This document shows, piece by piece, positions 6,884 through 61,242 of a stretch of 64,000 nt of DNA. Numbering within the stretch: position 1 is the first letter of the stretch; each line of letters starts with the position of its first letter. Source of the stretch: Bacteroidales bacterium. GTDB taxonomy: Bacteria; Bacteroidota; Bacteroidia; Bacteroidales; UBA932. The stretch is taken from NCBI GenBank assembly GCA_015060225.1, contig SUYX01000009.1, positions 1 through 64,000 of the forward strand, written 5' to 3'. The notes under the pieces were generated by a model. It made no database searches and was not told the DNA's origin. It was given only the letters and a program-made list of their open reading frames with translations. The position numbers and the translations under genes are program-made.

Positions 6884-8125
6884 ATGAGAATTGCAGTTGC
6901 AGGTACGGGTTATGTGGGGCTTTCTATGGCTTGTTTGCTGGCGCAGCATAATAGTGTTGTGGCGGTGGATGTGGTGCCGGAGAGGGTGGAGAAGGTGAAC
7001 AGGAGGGAGAGTCCAATTCAGGATGAGTGGATTGAGAAGTTTTTCAGGGAAAAGGAGTTGGATCTGGCGGCTACGCTGGATTGGGAGTCGGCATATAGAG
7101 ATGCTGAGTTTGTGGTGATTGCTACCCCTACCAATTATGATTCAAGGAAGAACTTCTTTGATACTTCGTCGGTTGAGGATGTGATTGGGAAGGTGATGAG
7201 GGTGAATCCCAGTGCGGTAATGGTTATTAAGAGTACGGTGCCGGTGGGGTATACGTCGGGAGTAAGGTGGAAGTTCGGGTGTGAAAATATCTTGTTTTCT
7301 CCGGAGTTTTTGCGTGAGAGTCAGGCGTTGTATGATAATCTTTATCCTTCGCGTATTATTGTTGGCTTCCCGACAGGTGATGCCGCGATGGAGGAGGCTG
7401 CCCATTCTTTTGCCGATTTGCTCCGGGAGGGGGCTGTGAAGGAGGATGTGCCGGTGCTGTTTATGGGGTTGAAGGAGGCTGAGGCGGTGAAGTTGTTTGC
7501 GAATACTTATCTTGCTTTGAGGGTCTCTTATTTCAATGAGTTGGATACTTATGCTGAGGTGAAGGGGTTGGATACTCAGGCTATCATCAATGGTATTGGG
7601 CTGGATCCTCGTATCGGTACCCATTATAATAATCCTTCGTTCGGTTATGGCGGTTATTGTTTGCCTAAGGATACTAAGCAGTTGCTGGCAAACTACAATG
7701 ATGTACCGCAGAATATGATGAGTGCGATTGTGGAGAGTAACAGGACGCGTAAGGATTTTATTGCGGATCAGGTGCTGGCTAAGGCGGGGTATTATGATTA
7801 TTCTTCCAATAATGAATTTGGTGGTGCGGCTTTGGAGCGTGAGGTTGTTGTGGGAGTTTACCGTCTGACTATGAAGGCGAACTCGGATAATTTCCGCCAG
7901 AGTGCGATCCAGGGTGTGATGAAGAGGATTAAGGCTAAGGGTGCTACTGTGGTGATTTATGAGCCTACGCTGGAGGATGGTTCTACATTCTTCGGGAGTA
8001 AGGTGGTGAATGATCTTGCTGAGTTTAAGGCTCAGTGTGATGCCATTATTGCCAACAGGTATGATTCTTGCCTGGATGATGTGCAGGAGAAGGTTTATAC
8101 GAGGGATGTGTTTAGGAGAGATTAG
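6884..8125 (+). CDS. ugd: UDP-glucose 6-dehydrogenase
   Basis: A 413-residue nucleotide-sugar dehydrogenase that oxidises UDP-glucose (or a related UDP-sugar) to the uronic acid with two NAD+, supplying capsule or O-antigen precursors. The Rossmann motif [14 protein letters not shown] starts at residue 6. The central helical domain follows, and the catalytic cysteine lies in [15 protein letters not shown] near residue 259. Length is normal for the short bacterial form. UDP-ManNAc dehydrogenase is a less likely alternative. It is the most core-like gene in the repeat-bordered zone and is separated from the rfb genes only by the retron, which may have inserted between two surface-sugar loci. 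Repeat copy 5 begins just after the stop. Confidence 0.9.
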
Positions 8126-32101: not shown

Positions 32102-33193
32102 TCACGGCAACTGCAAAAGGAACTTCTTGCTCCCAAGGTTGCGTATTGTGTAGAAATCTTCCGGTTGGGCTCCTGCAAGCAGCTCTTTTTCGTACAGGCG
32201 CTGTGAGTAGCGGATATAGGTTTTCCTGTTTACAAAATATTCTACAGGGGGACGCTCTCCGGCATATTTGAATCCAAGTTTTTCATAAACATGGCCGTTT
32301 CCCCATTCAGAATCTGAGTAGGTCATTACCTCAAGAGGTGTACCGGGTTCTATTCTGGTATAGCGCTCCTCTATGAATGCGTTGAGGAGTCTTCCCATTC
32401 CCCCAACAACCCTTACACCCGGAAGGGAGGCGTAACGGACCCACTCATAAGAGTCAAATATCAGTATTTCAGCATTTTCCTGCTCCTCTTTCGGGACATT
32501 CTGCAGCAGGGAACCAATCTTGCGCACCATTGGGCGCCCTTCTGAGAATGTAGCAACAGCTACAATCTCCCCTTCGTATTCCAGGGCATATCTGTAACGG
32601 CATTTTGCGCTGGAGTAGGAGTGGTGCTTGTGCAGAAATTCCCTCACCTGCTCTGCTACAGCCTGGTTTCCTCTTCCCGATATCACTTTGCACTTTCTTG
32701 CAAATATGCTCCTGAACCTCTCCAGACGGGCAAGTATCCTCTCCTGTACCATCTCCCTGGTACTCCACCAGCGGTCTTCGTAGAGATATACTTTGTCTGT
32801 GGCATCCGGAGGATTGGTGTTGCCTGTTGCATTCCCATGCTGGTAAGGATATGCTGCGGCACTGCCCTCAGGTCTACCGGTGGCTGAGGCAATCCCTGCG
32901 CCGGGCCACTCCGGTGATGGGTTTTCGGAGGCTGAGGCAATCCCTGCGCCGGGCCACTGCGGAGGTGGGTTTTCGGAGGCTGAGGCAATCCCAGCACCGG
33001 GCCACTGCGGAGATGGGTTTTCGGAGGCTGAGGCAATCCCTGCACCGGGCCACTGCGGAGGTGGAGTGCCGGCAGGGACAAGTTCTGCGGTAAACTCATA
33101 ATCCGGAAACACGAACAGATTGCCGTACTCTATGAAATCTATATATGAAGAGTCCAGAAAACTCCTGAAACTGCTTTTGAATGTGCTGTCCAT
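32102..33193 (-). CDS. Acetyltransferase-like protein with 16-residue repeats
   Basis: A 363-residue protein. The C-terminal 220 residues (RKCKVISGRGNQAVAEQVRE on, with YALEYEGEIVAVATFSEGRP and LEVMTYSDSEWGNGHVYEKL, then GFKYAG) look like a GNAT-type fold related to Mom/phage-like acyltransferases; I am not certain of the family. The N-terminal part contains four copies of a 16-residue unit with the core QWPGAGIASASENP, coded by a 48-bp tandem repeat, joining a normal N-terminus to the catalytic part. Such a Pro/Gly/Ala-rich linker would be flexible, and copy number may vary among strains. Divergent from tRNA-Lys. Confidence 0.6.
   Translation of the reverse strand: MDSTFKSSFRSFLDSSYIDFIEYGNLFVFPDYEFTAELVPAGTPPPQWPGAGIASASENPSPQWPGAGIASASENPPPQWPGAGIASASENPSPEWPGAGIASATGRPEGSAAAYPYQHGNATGNTNPPDATDKVYLYEDRWWSTREMVQERILARLERFRSIFARKCKVISGRGNQAVAEQVREFLHKHHSYSSAKCRYRYALEYEGEIVAVATFSEGRPMVRKIGSLLQNVPKEEQENAEILIFDSYEWVRYASLPGVRVVGGMGRLLNAFIEERYTRIEPGTPLEVMTYSDSEWGNGHVYEKLGFKYAGERPPVEYFVNRKTYIRYSQRLYEKELLAGAQPEDFYTIRNLGSKKFLLQLP
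32882..33073 (-). repeat. 48-bp tandem repeat inside the acetyltransferase-like gene
   Basis: Four units begin at 32882, 32930, 32978 and 33026. Core words are GGCTGAGGCAATCCC and CGGGCCACTGCGGAG. Units two to four are almost identical, which points to recent expansion; the period is a multiple of three and keeps the frame. Confidence 0.93.
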
Positions 33194-33418: not shown

Positions 33419-33571
33419 GGGGTGCCTGAAGTGGTATTTGTCACAGAATGCGGGGATTTCGTGATAACTTGGGTGCCGGGAGTGGCATTTGTCACAGAAT
33501 GCGGGGATTCCGTGACAACTGAGGTGCCTGGAGTGGCATTTGTCACAGGGGAAGGGGATTCCGTGACAACT
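33419..33571. repeat. 51-bp tandem repeat, intergenic
   Basis: Three units of 51 bases, each with GGTGCC.G.AGTGG.ATTTG and TCACAGAATGCGGGGATT then CGTGA.AACT. They lie in the gap between tRNA-Lys and clpC. An open frame runs through them on the plus strand, but only because the period is a multiple of three and it has no plausible start context. Confidence 0.85.
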
Positions 33572-33588
33572 GCGGTGCCCGGTGCAGC

Positions 33589-33795
33589 CGCCTGTCCACG
33601 GAGAGGGTGCCTGGTGTGGATGTGCGGTGCCAGGAGGTGACATTTGTCCACGGAGAGGGGTGTTTTTGTGGACGCAGAAAAGAAATGCAATCGCCTGTCC
33701 ACGGAAAGGGTGCCTGGCGTGGACGTACGGTGCCTGGAGGTGACTTTTGTCCACGGACGGGGGTATTTTTGTGGATGCACGGTGCCCGGAGGGAC
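33589..33795. repeat. 103-bp duplicated repeat, intergenic
   Basis: Two units of about 103 bases starting at 33589 and 33692 (CGCCTGTCCACGGA...GGTGCC.GG...TTTGTCCACGGA...TTTTTGTGGA). Each contains TCCAC and GTGGA words in both orientations. The 3' end reaches the clpC stop codon at 33801. It occupies the remainder of a 430-base gap without a gene. Confidence 0.8.
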
Positions 33796-46460: not shown

Positions 46461-47960
46461 TCAGTGAGTGGGATTGGTTACTATAAGTACCTTGTCTCCG
46501 TTGTGGAGTGTGGTGGCAAAAATATGCCTCTCTCCTCCATCCTTTATGCCTGAGAGTTTTTTGAGGGCATTGGTGTCCAGCGGAAAATTTCTGGCCGTAA
46601 TATCAGCCTTAGGGAACCTCTTGGCAAGTTCCTTGAGGCTTTTCTTATTGAACTGAATTACCTCTTCCACCCTGTAGGCTTTCCCGGGAAACTCATTTAT
46701 CTGCTCTTGTGAAGTGTACAGATGGGTACTTACCGCCAGTTTTTCACAATTGTACCTCTGGCTTGCCAAATTGAACGCCCCCGCCTTCAACCACCCCTTG
46801 CCAAGTTCATAAAGATATGACTTTACTTGGCTGGTGTAGGTGGCAACACCTTTCTCTGTTACGTTGTCTTTTTGTACAATTAATTCAAAATCAGATACTT
46901 CTAAATTTGATTTTATTGCACATTCAGATTTATTGTTTTGTATTTTATTGATATTCAGCTTATTGTACAAAAAGACAACGTTAATATCAGGTGCCTTTTT
47001 ATTGTTTCTGTTGAGGAGGAAGAGGAGTTCTTTACACTCGTTGTCAACGGTTACAATATAAACGGCTGAGGCATTAGGCAAAAGTTTGAGGTTCAGGGAG
47101 ATGTCTGCCATAGGGGAGACTTTTACAAGGATAAGGGGGCTCACTTCAAACATCTTTTCCTGAAGGTCCACCACATTGGGCTCGTAATCCTGAAGGAGTA
47201 TGGCTTTCTTTCCGTCTGCCAGTCGGCGGGCTGGGTCAATATACAGCAGATCAATACCTTGCCCCTTAAGTTCCTCCAGGGCTGCACATCCGTCTGCGGT
47301 AATGTCGCGGTTGGAGACAATAATGTTTTCCGCACCCAATTGCCCGAAATTGTATGCAGTAGCCTCACACAATTCTGTATTGCGCTCAAAATAGTAATGT
47401 TTTTCGGCAATTCTGGAGATAAAGAAGGAATCTATCCCCATACCGCCGGTAAGATCAGCAGTAATGATTCCTCTTGCTCTTCCCGACAAATTCTGCTTTC
47501 CGTCCACAAAAGCACCCCTGTTTGTGGATGTGCTGCTGGAAATGTCTGTTCCGTCCACAAATGCGCCCCCGTTTGTGGATGTGCTGCTGGAAATGTTTGT
47601 TTCGTCCACAAATGCACCCCCGTTTGTGGATGTGCTGCCGGAAATATCTGTTTTGTCCACAAAAGTGCCCCCGTTTGTGGATGTGCTGCTGGTGGATGGA
47701 CGGAGATGCTCCAGGATGAGTTGTTGTTTGAATAGGGCGGTGGCCTGTGAACTTCCTTGCTCCACGGATACTGAGAACGGGTAAACCAGCGAAGGGGATG
47801 AGTGCCAGAGGGGGGCTTTGATCTTCATTTTCTTACGCGCCTCAATGCATTTGACACACAATGGCACATTTATTCCGGCAGGGTGGCGGCCCAGCAACAG
47901 GCGGGAGGTTTCTGCCCCATCATTTTCCAAGATGTACTGTATTTCTTCCGGTTTCAGCAT
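46461..47960 (-). CDS. THUMP-like SAM methyltransferase with inserted repeats
   Basis: About 499 residues. The methyltransferase core has ITADLTGGMGIDSFFIS (SAM motif I) near residue 168 and LLYIDPARRL (N/D-P-P-Y-like motif) near 238. The C-terminal half resembles the PG_1098/THUMP-like proteins of Bacteroidota. The substrate is unknown, possibly RNA. Between residues 95 and 155 four 17-residue units (core STSTNGGAFVD.T.IS) are inserted, coded by 51-bp repeats. The first 60 residues (ILENDGAETSRLLLGRHPAG) are the normal family start. ATG 47960 chosen; TTG 47969 is also possible. A 27-bp repeat array lies directly upstream. Confidence 0.78.
   Translation of the reverse strand: MLKPEEIQYILENDGAETSRLLLGRHPAGINVPLCVKCIEARKKMKIKAPLWHSSPSLVYPFSVSVEQGSSQATALFKQQLILEHLRPSTSSTSTNGGTFVDKTDISGSTSTNGGAFVDETNISSSTSTNGGAFVDGTDISSSTSTNRGAFVDGKQNLSGRARGIITADLTGGMGIDSFFISRIAEKHYYFERNTELCEATAYNFGQLGAENIIVSNRDITADGCAALEELKGQGIDLLYIDPARRLADGKKAILLQDYEPNVVDLQEKMFEVSPLILVKVSPMADISLNLKLLPNASAVYIVTVDNECKELLFLLNRNNKKAPDINVVFLYNKLNINKIQNNKSECAIKSNLEVSDFELIVQKDNVTEKGVATYTSQVKSYLYELGKGWLKAGAFNLASQRYNCEKLAVSTHLYTSQEQINEFPGKAYRVEEVIQFNKKSLKELAKRFPKADITARNFPLDTNALKKLSGIKDGGERHIFATTLHNGDKVLIVTNPTH
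47501..47700 (-). repeat. 51-bp tandem repeat inside the methyltransferase gene
   Basis: Units begin at 47501, 47552, 47603 and 47654. Each has CGTCCACAAA.GC.CCC, GTTTGTGGATGTGCTGC and GGAAAT.T.TGTT. The TCCACAAA...TTTGTGGA words within one unit are inverted relative to each other. In frame. Confidence 0.95.
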
Positions 47961-47989
47961 TATTTTCAATTTATATCATCATGTTCTGT

Positions 47990-48165
47990 GGCCGTACTTT
48001 GTTGTTCAAATGTTATGGCCGTACTTTGTTGTTCAAATGTTATGGCCGTACTTTCTTGCTCAATTGTTATGGCCGTACTTTGTTGTTCAAATGTTATGGC
48101 CGTACTTTCTTGCTCAATTGTTATGGCCGTACTTTGTTGCTCAAATGTTATGGCCGTAATATTAT
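47990..48165. repeat. 27-bp tandem repeat between methyltransferase and MATE genes
   Basis: Seven units begin at 47990, 48017, 48044, 48071, 48098, 48125 and 48152, core TATGGCCGTACTTTGTTG then TTCAAATGT. Two variants (TTGTTGTTCAAA and TTCTTGCTCAAT) alternate. Minus-strand translation gives a nine-residue unit (STAITFEQQ), but there is no ATG. It lies in the likely 5' leader of the methyltransferase gene. Confidence 0.93.
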
Positions 48166-58801: not shown

Positions 58802-58888
58802 ATATTTTTTTTGTAAATCATCCTAACACTCCTTACAAATCTAATGTTTGGACGCGGATGACGGCGATTTGCGGTAGAGGTAGCCGGA

Positions 58889-59449
58889 GTAATTTGACTG
58901 GTTGGCAAAGTTTGAGTCATAGGTGACTGTTTTTGCAGCGGGAATGGTTGTGCGGTGTGGAACTGCTTCATGATTGGGCATTTTTGCAGCGGGAATGTTT
59001 GCGCGGCGTGGAACTGCTCCATGATTGGGCAATTTTGCAGCGGGAATGGTTGTGCGGTGTGGAACTGCTTCATGATTGGGCATTTTTGCAGCGGGAATAG
59101 TTACGCTGTATGGAACTGCTTCGTGATTGGGCATTTTTGTAGCGGGAATGTTTGCGCGGTGTGGAACTGCTTCGTGATTGGGCAATTTTGCAGCGGGAAT
59201 GGTTGTGCGGTGTGGAACTGCATCAAAAAAAGGCAATTTTGCGGCACGAATAGTTACGCTATATGGAACTGCTTTAGGATTGGGCAATTTTGCAGCGCGA
59301 ATAGTTACGCTGTATGGAACTGCTTCAGGATTGGGCATTTTTGCAGCGGGAATAGTTACGCTGTATGGAACTGCTTCGTGATTGGGCATTTTTGCAGCGG
59401 AGATGGTTGCGGCTAAAGGGATTGCTTCAGAAGTTGACGCTTTTGTGGC
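58889..59449. repeat. 51-bp tandem repeat array left of the transposase
   Basis: Nine clear units start at 58940 and every 51 bases to 59348, with degenerate units at 58889 and 59399. Shared words are GGAACTGCTTC, GATTGGGCA and TTTTTGCAGCG. Units differ mainly in the first 25 bases (AATGGTTGTGCGGTG versus AATAGTTACGCTGTA). Open frames exist on both strands because 51 is a multiple of three; none has a promoter or a start that I trust. Confidence 0.95.
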
Positions 59450-59455
59450 CGGAAT

Positions 59456-59477
59456 CTATTTATAAATAGCTTTTTTT
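59456..59477 (+). terminator. Palindrome with T run
   Basis: CTATTTATAAATAG is a perfect palindrome followed by C and seven T. It lies between the left array and the transposase gene. Confidence 0.45.
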
Positions 59478-59596
59478 CTATTTTCAGCATCACAGAATTT
59501 TGCTCTTTTTAGAATTGACTAAAGTTTTACAATTTTTTCTTTTTCACGCATCCTGTTGCGTAGAATGTGGTTATCATTGTCAAAAAATTGTTGTTT

Positions 59597-60520
59597 ATGG
59601 CTTTAGATGATGAAATTCTTCTCAGGTTCAAAAATGACGGACCGTTTTGGCATTTGTGCACTCCAGGACAGTTGTCGGGAATATTATTTTGTGCCAAGAA
59701 GGATTATGTTTATGCAATGAATTTGGTGGCTTTGTGCATCGCTATCCATTGCGGCAGGGTGAAAATTTATACTTTTCAGATTATGAGCAACCACTTCCAT
59801 TTTGTATTGTCGGGAAGTAAGGAAAATGTTCTGTTGTTTTTCAATGAGTTGAGGAGGCGTCTTCACAGATTTTTTGCATATAGGAAGGAGGCTGCCAAAA
59901 TGAAGGAGTTCGAGTGCAATCTCTTTGAAGTATGTGATTTGATGTATTTGAGGAGTGTTATAGCATATGTTAATAGGAATGGTTTTATGGTAAACAGACG
60001 GGTGACTCCGTTTTCTTATCAGTGGGGTGCCAATAGGTTTATGTTCAGTCAACTGCATCTTTTTGAGCAGATGCGTCCGATTTCTGATGTGCCCCAGAGG
60101 GAACGTCAGAGGATTTTTCATTCTCATTTCAATTGTTTTCCCGACAGTTATTTTTTTGTAAATGATTATGTGTCACCTGTCTGCTACTGTAAAATTACTG
60201 AGTGTGAGAGTTTTTTCTTTAGTTCTCACCATTATTTTTCGTTTCTTTCCCGACGGGTTGAGGCGTTTGCGGATATTGCACGGGAACTGGGGGATATGAT
60301 TACTTTTACAGATGATGAGATTTATCTTGCTGCACTTTCGTATTCAAATAAGCAATTTAATGAGAAGTCCATTAAGTCACTGGATAAAACGCAGAAGACT
60401 GAGCTTGCGAAAGTGTTGCGGTACAATTATAATGGCACACATAAGCAGATAGCCAGGGTGCTTAATATGGAATTGAGATACATTGAGGCGCTTTTTCCTG
60501 TGCCTATTGGTGGAAAGTAG
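59597..60520 (+). CDS. IS200-like HUH (RAYT-type) transposase
   Basis: A 307-residue Y1-type single-strand DNA transposase-like protein. The HUH motif is seen as MSNHFHFVL (His-Phe-His) near residue 70, and the candidate catalytic tyrosine lies in VIAYVNRNGF near 129, followed by SYQWGANRFMF. The longer C-terminal part and the absence of IS200/IS605 ends place it with domesticated REP-associated proteins rather than an ordinary insertion sequence. It is bracketed by two direct arrays of related 51-bp units, one ending 150 bases before and one starting 20 bases after, which strongly suggests a functional link. ATG 59597 is chosen; GTG 59567 is possible. Confidence 0.82.
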   Translation: MALDDEILLRFKNDGPFWHLCTPGQLSGILFCAKKDYVYAMNLVALCIAIHCGRVKIYTFQIMSNHFHFVLSGSKENVLLFFNELRRRLHRFFAYRKEAAKMKEFECNLFEVCDLMYLRSVIAYVNRNGFMVNRRVTPFSYQWGANRFMFSQLHLFEQMRPISDVPQRERQRIFHSHFNCFPDSYFFVNDYVSPVCYCKITECESFFFSSHHYFSFLSRRVEAFADIARELGDMITFTDDEIYLAALSYSNKQFNEKSIKSLDKTQKTELAKVLRYNYNGTHKQIARVLNMELRYIEALFPVPIGGK

Positions 60521-60538
60521 AGGTGCATGTAGTTAGTA

Positions 60539-61048
60539 AAGCGTTGTTGCGCGGTATGGCACTGCATCAGAAAAGGGCAATTTTGCAGCGCGAATAGTTA
60601 CGCTGTATGGAACTGCTTCGGGATTGGGCAATTTTGCAGCGGAGATGGTTACGGTGAGTGGCATTGCATCAGAAAAGGGCAATTTTGTAGCGCGAATAGT
60701 TACGCTGTGTGGAACTGCTTCGGGATTGGGCAATTTTGCAGCGGAGATAGTTACGCTGTATGGAACTGCTTCAGGATTGGGCATTTTTGCAGCGGAGATG
60801 GTTACGGTGAGTGGAACTGCATCAAAATAGGGCAATTTTGCAGCACGAATAGTTACGCTGTATGGAACTGCTTCGGGATTGGGTATTTTTGCAGCGGAGA
60901 TGGTTACGGTGAGTGGAACTGCATCAAAATAGGGCAATTTTGCAGCGCGAATAGTTACGCTGTATGGAACTGCTTCGTGATTGGGCATTTTTGCAGCGGA
61001 GATGGTTACGGTGAGTGGAACTGCATCAGAAAAGGGCAATTTTGCAGC
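60539..61048. repeat. 51-bp tandem repeat array right of the transposase
   Basis: Ten units (starts 60539, 60590 and every 51 bases to 60998), in the same orientation as the left array and sharing GGAACTGC, GGGCA and TTTTGCAGC. Two subtypes mostly alternate: GCGAATAGTTACGCTGTA and GGAGATGGTTACGGTGAG, giving a 102-base higher-order unit. From 61049 to 61160 short AGTGCAG/ATCAG words recur without clear period. Confidence 0.95.
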
Positions 61049-61242
61049 GCGAATTTAGTGAAAGTAGTGAGATCAGTGCAGTCCGGCGCATATTAGTGCA
61101 GATCAGAGCGGATTAGTGTATATCAGAACATATCAGTGCAGAACAGTGCAGAGAGAGTCGGATACTGCCAAATTGTCATAAAAATTCATTTGGTCAATTA
61201 TTTGAACGGATTCTGTTGTGAGATGTTTAATTATTTACAATT

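Follow-up and report, generated by a model that had tools for sequence, protein, structure and literature searches.

A RAYT-like transposase gene between arrays of 51-bp direct repeats in a gut Bacteroidales bacterium, with relatives that adjoin other repeats of similar period

In the REPtrons of Escherichia coli, Stenotrophomonas and Xanthomonas, a Y1 HUH gene of the RAYT (TnpA_REP) class is flanked by palindromic-repeat arrays known as bacterial interspersed mosaic elements (BIMEs); each gene has its own repeat family, copies occur elsewhere in the genome and the identity between gene copies is low (PMC2817692, PMC8266576, PMC6006769; these and the other published systems are described here from excerpts of the papers cited). 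The E. coli rayt gene is flanked on either side by BIME-2, a BIME is the direct neighbor of about one third of RAYTs, and Xanthomonas campestris harbors regularly spaced clusters of alternating repetitive extragenic palindromes (REPs) (Nunvar 2010, PMC2817692). In P. fluorescens SBW25, three RAYTs each have ordered tandem clusters of a type of their own next to them, and evenly spaced arrays exist (Bertels 2011, PMC3116915); excerpts of PMC8266576 and PMC3733652 agree on cognate repeats and clustering. Here we describe a locus from a gut bacterium (Bacteroidales, UBA932; assembly GCA_015060225.1), located in the first 64,000 nucleotides of contig SUYX01000009.1, a stretch referred to as the window. 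It consists of a RAYT-like gene between two arrays of 51-bp direct repeats, and is probably a REPtron-like unit, in which a domesticated-type RAYT-class Y1 (HUH) transposase acts in whole units on its own cognate head-to-tail arrays. The components of the locus are the following:

58825..61165 (no strand): whole element (left array, gene and right array), 2,341 bp, from comparison with locus L219, boundaries checked
58930..59411 (no strand): left array, period 51 bp, 9.5 copies, 85% matches (Tandem Repeats Finder)
59597..60520 (+): RAYT-like HUH/Y1 transposase gene, 307 aa, ATG at 59597; a GTG start at 59567 is possible
59792..59800 (+): HUH motif H66-F-H68 within NHFH (alignments)
59966..59968 (+): presumed catalytic tyrosine Y124 of the motif Y-x-x-x-N128 (alignments)
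60311..60493 (+): C-terminal four-helix domain, residues 239-299
60546..61054 (no strand): right array, period 51 bp, about 10 units (Tandem Repeats Finder)

The first-pass annotation had proposed a RAYT-like HUH transposase with 51-bp arrays on both sides, and the two parts of this description are borne out. Tandem Repeats Finder recovers both arrays, which contain 9 left and 10 right direct units when cut at a shared word, form one direct-repeat family (D1) in the same orientation and stand far above chance around the gene. The right array is reported at period 51 (60546-61049, 9.9 copies, 77% matches) and at period 102 bp (60546-61054, 5.0 copies, 89% matches); this higher order arises because two unit sub-types largely alternate. 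In the protein, N65, H66, H68, Y124 and N128 do not vary in either of two alignments, of 26 and 51 sequences, and the predicted fold is that of a Y1 transposase, near TnpA_REP. The gene is thus a domesticated-looking RAYT-like HUH transposase of predicted activity, whose C-terminal domain is perhaps DnaA-domain-IV-like or helix-turn-helix (HTH)-like.

A C-terminal extension is shared with the TIRYT group (subclass 2.1), where it is HTH/DnaA_C-like (PMC6006769, PMC3733652), and with subclass 2.3, which is also similar in length (median 325 aa; PMC6006769). According to the excerpts of PMC6006769, however, no REP-like repeats were found beside the genes of these two subclasses, and TIRYT genes have terminal inverted repeats of the GGGGWSAS type, some families of which are clustered (PMC3733652). 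Subclass 2.6 (Quentin 2018, PMC6006769) resembles the present family in being mostly from Bacteroidetes, in its atypical structures without GT[AG]G and in its copies elsewhere, but its median length is 179 aa versus about 300 here, and fixed-period tandem arrays are not mentioned in the excerpts. The GT[AG]G foot is reported to be lacking in subclasses 2.6 and 3, and the class-2 signature is published as Y---NP (PMC6006769); in our family the residue after the N is mostly G, S or P. The model NF047646 matches 15 of 26 family members at E<=0.1, the window protein not being among them.

Compared with REPtrons, the present system has head-to-tail units, a 51-52-bp period common to unrelated sequences, no GT[AG]G foot and an additional C-terminal domain in a protein of about 300 aa. 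Within published BIMEs, the REPs alternate in orientation, whereas the window units are direct repeats, a comparison limited by the poorly defined unit orientation in palindromic relatives of the window array. The inter-REP segments of Stenotrophomonas vary substantially in length, and the REPINs of SBW25, although alike in forming tandem clusters of their own type beside RAYTs, are inverted REP pairs of 71/110 bp with array spacings of 112/72 bp and no common 51 bp (PMC3116915). We do not classify the window system among the canonical GTAG REP systems. Long flanking arrays as such, which had been taken to lie outside the described arrangement, are already documented by the BIME-2 copies that flank E. 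coli rayt, among other cases (PMC2817692). What appears to be new is the 51-52-bp head-to-tail unit common to unrelated sequences, the form of about 300 aa with such arrays and a series of unit counts, for which the excerpts of the RAYT/REP literature hold no description.

This genome encodes six family members found with the protein query, including the window gene (contigs C20, C27, C28, C41, C31 and C40), and in all six the gene adjoins an array whose period is 51 or 102-104 bp, or both. Arrays flank both sides in four cases and are downstream only on C31 and upstream only on C40, where the locus (L042) shows several periods around the gene (20, 51 and 82 bp), unlike the four closest paralogues. 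A seventh, distant match on C62 covers the core only and lay outside this survey. Genus-wide, the window protein was matched in 23 of 39 genomes and the family profile in 30 of 39. We then considered 125 loci, window included (55 genus loci plus the best 80 of 372 from a named-genome search, minus 10 duplicates), defining as 51-type any array with a best tandem period of 50-53 or 101-105 bp and a score of at least 30; flanks of 1 kb were compared with stretches 2-3 kb away and with gene interiors. The cut-off was reached in 42/122 left and 48/125 right near flanks, 64 of these 90 being 51-type (26 left, 38 right), in 8/219 far stretches (6/107 and 2/112, of which 3 and 1 are 51-type) and in none of the 125 gene interiors. 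Per locus, a 51-type array was present in either near flank in 50 cases and in a far flank in 4. Arrays lie on both sides in 11 of the 12 closest loci, the twelfth (L048) having a period of 93. Taking one best period for each of the 60 loci with a strong array, 51 was found in 23, 52 in 11, 50 in 4 and 102 or 104 in 6; the period is common to the family although the unit sequences differ. Ordinary minisatellite expansion that adjoins the gene by chance could draw on the tandem arrays of other periods, whose density is about 35 per Mb in the samples from carriers as well as in those from non-carriers, but it is very improbable: the flank control contradicts it (51-type in 64/247 near flanks versus 4/219 farther out), as does a period of 51 common to unrelated sequences. 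Among the best 80 of 372 records, one relative (L142) comes from an entry titled Fibrobacter sp. metagenome-assembled genome, due to transfer or a binning error, and the other 79 titles are Bacteroidales, Bacteroidia or genera taken as Bacteroidales.

A period of 51 also equals 3 x 17, and the arrays could in principle encode a protein of 17-residue repeats with several frames open; open frames of 129-182 aa do cross them on both strands. This idea is barely credible, since unit-to-unit differences lack codon phase, with counts of 63/78/88 for the left array (8 of 9 units) and 110/114/94 for the right array (9 of 10 units), and the best period is 52 or 104, which shifts the reading frame, in 13 of the 60 strong-array loci.

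The repeats are largely private to each gene. In 48 of 110 loci, the number of 8-mers common to the left and right flanks of one gene exceeds the 99th percentile for mismatched pairs. The repeat arms follow the protein in both orthologue pairs between G000 and G007, with TTGTCAC arms in L038 and L046 (86% identical) and GTCCAC arms in L040 and L047 (80% identical), and differ between paralogues within one genome. The same kind of gene is found beside repeats of the same length and different sequence in many relatives, so that enzyme and repeat look like matched partners; this recurrence makes plausible the earlier suggestion that the arrays are the product or the substrate of the protein. The units had also been called non-palindromic. 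By our test, this is correct for the window consensus, since the inverted repeat is not significant in its two arrays (p 0.88 and 0.50), but not for most arrays of the relatives: it beats shuffles at p<=0.05 in 31 of 55 arrays of 49-53-bp units (40 shuffles each throughout), the arms measuring 7-20 bp and the spans 26-49 bp. A related repeat without a gene, which was picked up on contig C25 through its resemblance to the window array, folds as a strong hairpin (-9.8 kcal/mol), and the window units may thus be a degenerate palindrome.

The element lies between what we take, from their sequences, to be a C1-type peptidase gene and a clpB-like gene. In G007, whose clpB product is 93% identical, the peptidase-clpB spacer is devoid of the element, 6 bp replacing 58825-61165, and no target duplication is seen at the element site by comparison with this empty site. 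G009 and G018 have RAYT genes with arrays of other repeat sequences in the equivalent spacer, their proteins being 61% and 50% identical to that of the window. The G009 protein is sister to the window protein (SH-aLRT 99), and the G018 protein (L044) belongs to another lineage. The nonsynonymous divergence (dN) of the window-G009 protein pair is 0.34, 6-8 times that of two neighboring genes; either the protein evolved fast along with its repeats or the site was refilled. The clean presence or absence between close relatives and the occupation of the equivalent spacer in G018 by a RAYT of another lineage are reminiscent of a compact insertion sequence moving as one 2.3-kb unit with the arrays as its ends. 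We nevertheless consider this improbable. Segment by segment, the window protein shares 25-49% identity with the other copies in the genome, which is unlike a recently active element, and the near-identical copies expected of IS200/IS605 are not encountered. Loss in G007 accounts equally well for the empty site, because G009 has a sister RAYT there, and no identical whole-element copies were seen at different sites in a comparison made between species. A whole-unit difference in copy number is directly observed at L061, L062 and L063, which are one locus in three species: the left flanks of L062 and L063 are 98% and 94% identical to that of L061 and the proteins 98.6% and 93.1%, and the palindromes at 52-bp steps number 3 in L061, 1 in L062 and 2 in L063, a series that may reflect gain or loss of units.

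Arrays also occur without a gene. Seven gene-less 51-type arrays were detected in this genome (window plus a 344-kb sample), and the gene-less arrays of the window are these:

33419..33579 (no strand): gene-less 51-bp array with repeat words of the C27 RAYT locus (TTGTCAC arms)
33589..33779 (no strand): gene-less array of period 103, C41 RAYT locus (GTCCAC arms); 70 shared 7-mers, shuffle maximum 10
47498..47692 (no strand): gene-less 51-bp array, C41 RAYT locus; 48 shared 7-mers, shuffle maximum 11

For six of the seven, the overlap in repeat words with one of the six RAYT types is greater than in all 50 shuffles, and two of these six exceed the shuffles for a second type too. The array at 33419-33579 has 25 7-mers in common with the C27 type (shuffle maximum 7) and is less clean, two other types (18 and 8) also lying above the maximum. 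The array at 47498-47692 overlaps the N-terminal part of a mechanical open reading frame (46461-47969, minus strand), and a 27-bp tandem repeat of 6.3 copies lies nearby (47989-48158). Two further sites on C25, chosen by similarity or by eye, match RAYT repeat types. The window repeat type itself recurs as 11 units on contig C18 (L190, 11582-12248), and the consensus letters of both window arrays and the C18 array all agree at 22 of the first 31 positions and at 5 of the last 20. One gene-less 51-bp array (L175, 16155-16430) matches none of the six RAYT types of this genome and was perhaps left by a lost RAYT. Samples of four presumed non-carrier genomes contain one gene-less array in 659 kb, of period 156.

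If the locus is a REPtron-like unit, the protein would most likely bind its own repeat unit as single-stranded DNA via the HUH core, possibly with the assistance of the C-terminal helical domain; the tyrosine would cut at unit boundaries, rejoining would follow, and whole multiples of a unit (51/52 or 102/104 bp) would thereby be added, removed or transferred as copies to other places. Such changes would build the flanking arrays and seed gene-less arrays in trans, and protein and repeats would diverge together, giving each paralogue its private repeat. The data show the predicted fold and active-site residues, the matching of genes to repeat types, a copy-number difference of whole units at one orthologous locus, arrays without a gene in this genome and a close relative devoid of the element. 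We infer the cutting and the single-stranded intermediate, and the period of 51-52 bp, about five helical turns, may reflect protomers that need units in phase. Several results weigh against this reading. The window protein itself is named by neither of two hidden Markov model libraries, and the folding of three units of the window type is not superior to that of shuffles, or is so only slightly (z +0.38, +0.51 and -1.60). The GT[AG]G foot was found in 2 of 72 arm feet versus 3.1 expected, in a test covering the 36 of 55 arrays with an inverted-repeat p<=0.10, a set outside which the window's own arrays fall. By our measure, 75 of the 125 loci are without a 51-type array, and no more than 17 are flanked by such arrays on both sides; the first-pass annotation had named genes lacking arrays at random as a refutation, and genes without arrays do exist, but the absence is not random, since 11 of the 12 closest loci have both-sided arrays. 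Samples of three other RAYT-bearing genomes gave no gene-less 51-type array in 352 kb, so that dispersal may be special to this genome, and the difference in gene-less arrays between carriers and presumed non-carriers has a p of 0.054.

The main rival explanation regards the arrays as double-stranded operator or anchoring sites, bound via the C-terminal domain for self-regulation or DNA organization, with the unit number changing by replication slippage and unequal recombination alone; we find it rather unlikely. A more far-reaching proposal, which we hold as doubtful, is that these RAYTs have the dedicated role of building and maintaining bacterial satellite DNA, each writing and homogenizing a private five-helical-turn repeat beside the gene and in trans. 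Fast co-evolution of enzyme and repeat would then mean that the spacing of the array rather than its sequence is selected, for instance for a phased protein-DNA complex.

Within one genome, six paralogous genes are thus paired with arrays of different repeats but one common period, and among its relatives are orthologous loci with 1, 2 and 3 units as well as an empty site. These amount to natural swaps of specificity and allow the gain or loss of units to be counted directly, by which the roles of repeat sequence and spacing become separable.

Two other repeats were observed in the window. The 9-mer TGTCGGGAA occurs 15 times versus 0.30 expected, a count reached in 0 of 100 shuffles; 12 of the 15 are on the minus strand and three within the RAYT gene (e.g. 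7367-7375, minus; 59673-59681, plus). It is found 65 times in the 344-kb sample of this genome versus 2 in 200 kb of G033, and is possibly a Chi-like or other polar short motif. Finally, a 48-bp tandem repeat of 3.9 copies (32878-33064) lies inside an open reading frame on the minus strand (32102-33193) and may be a coding repeat.
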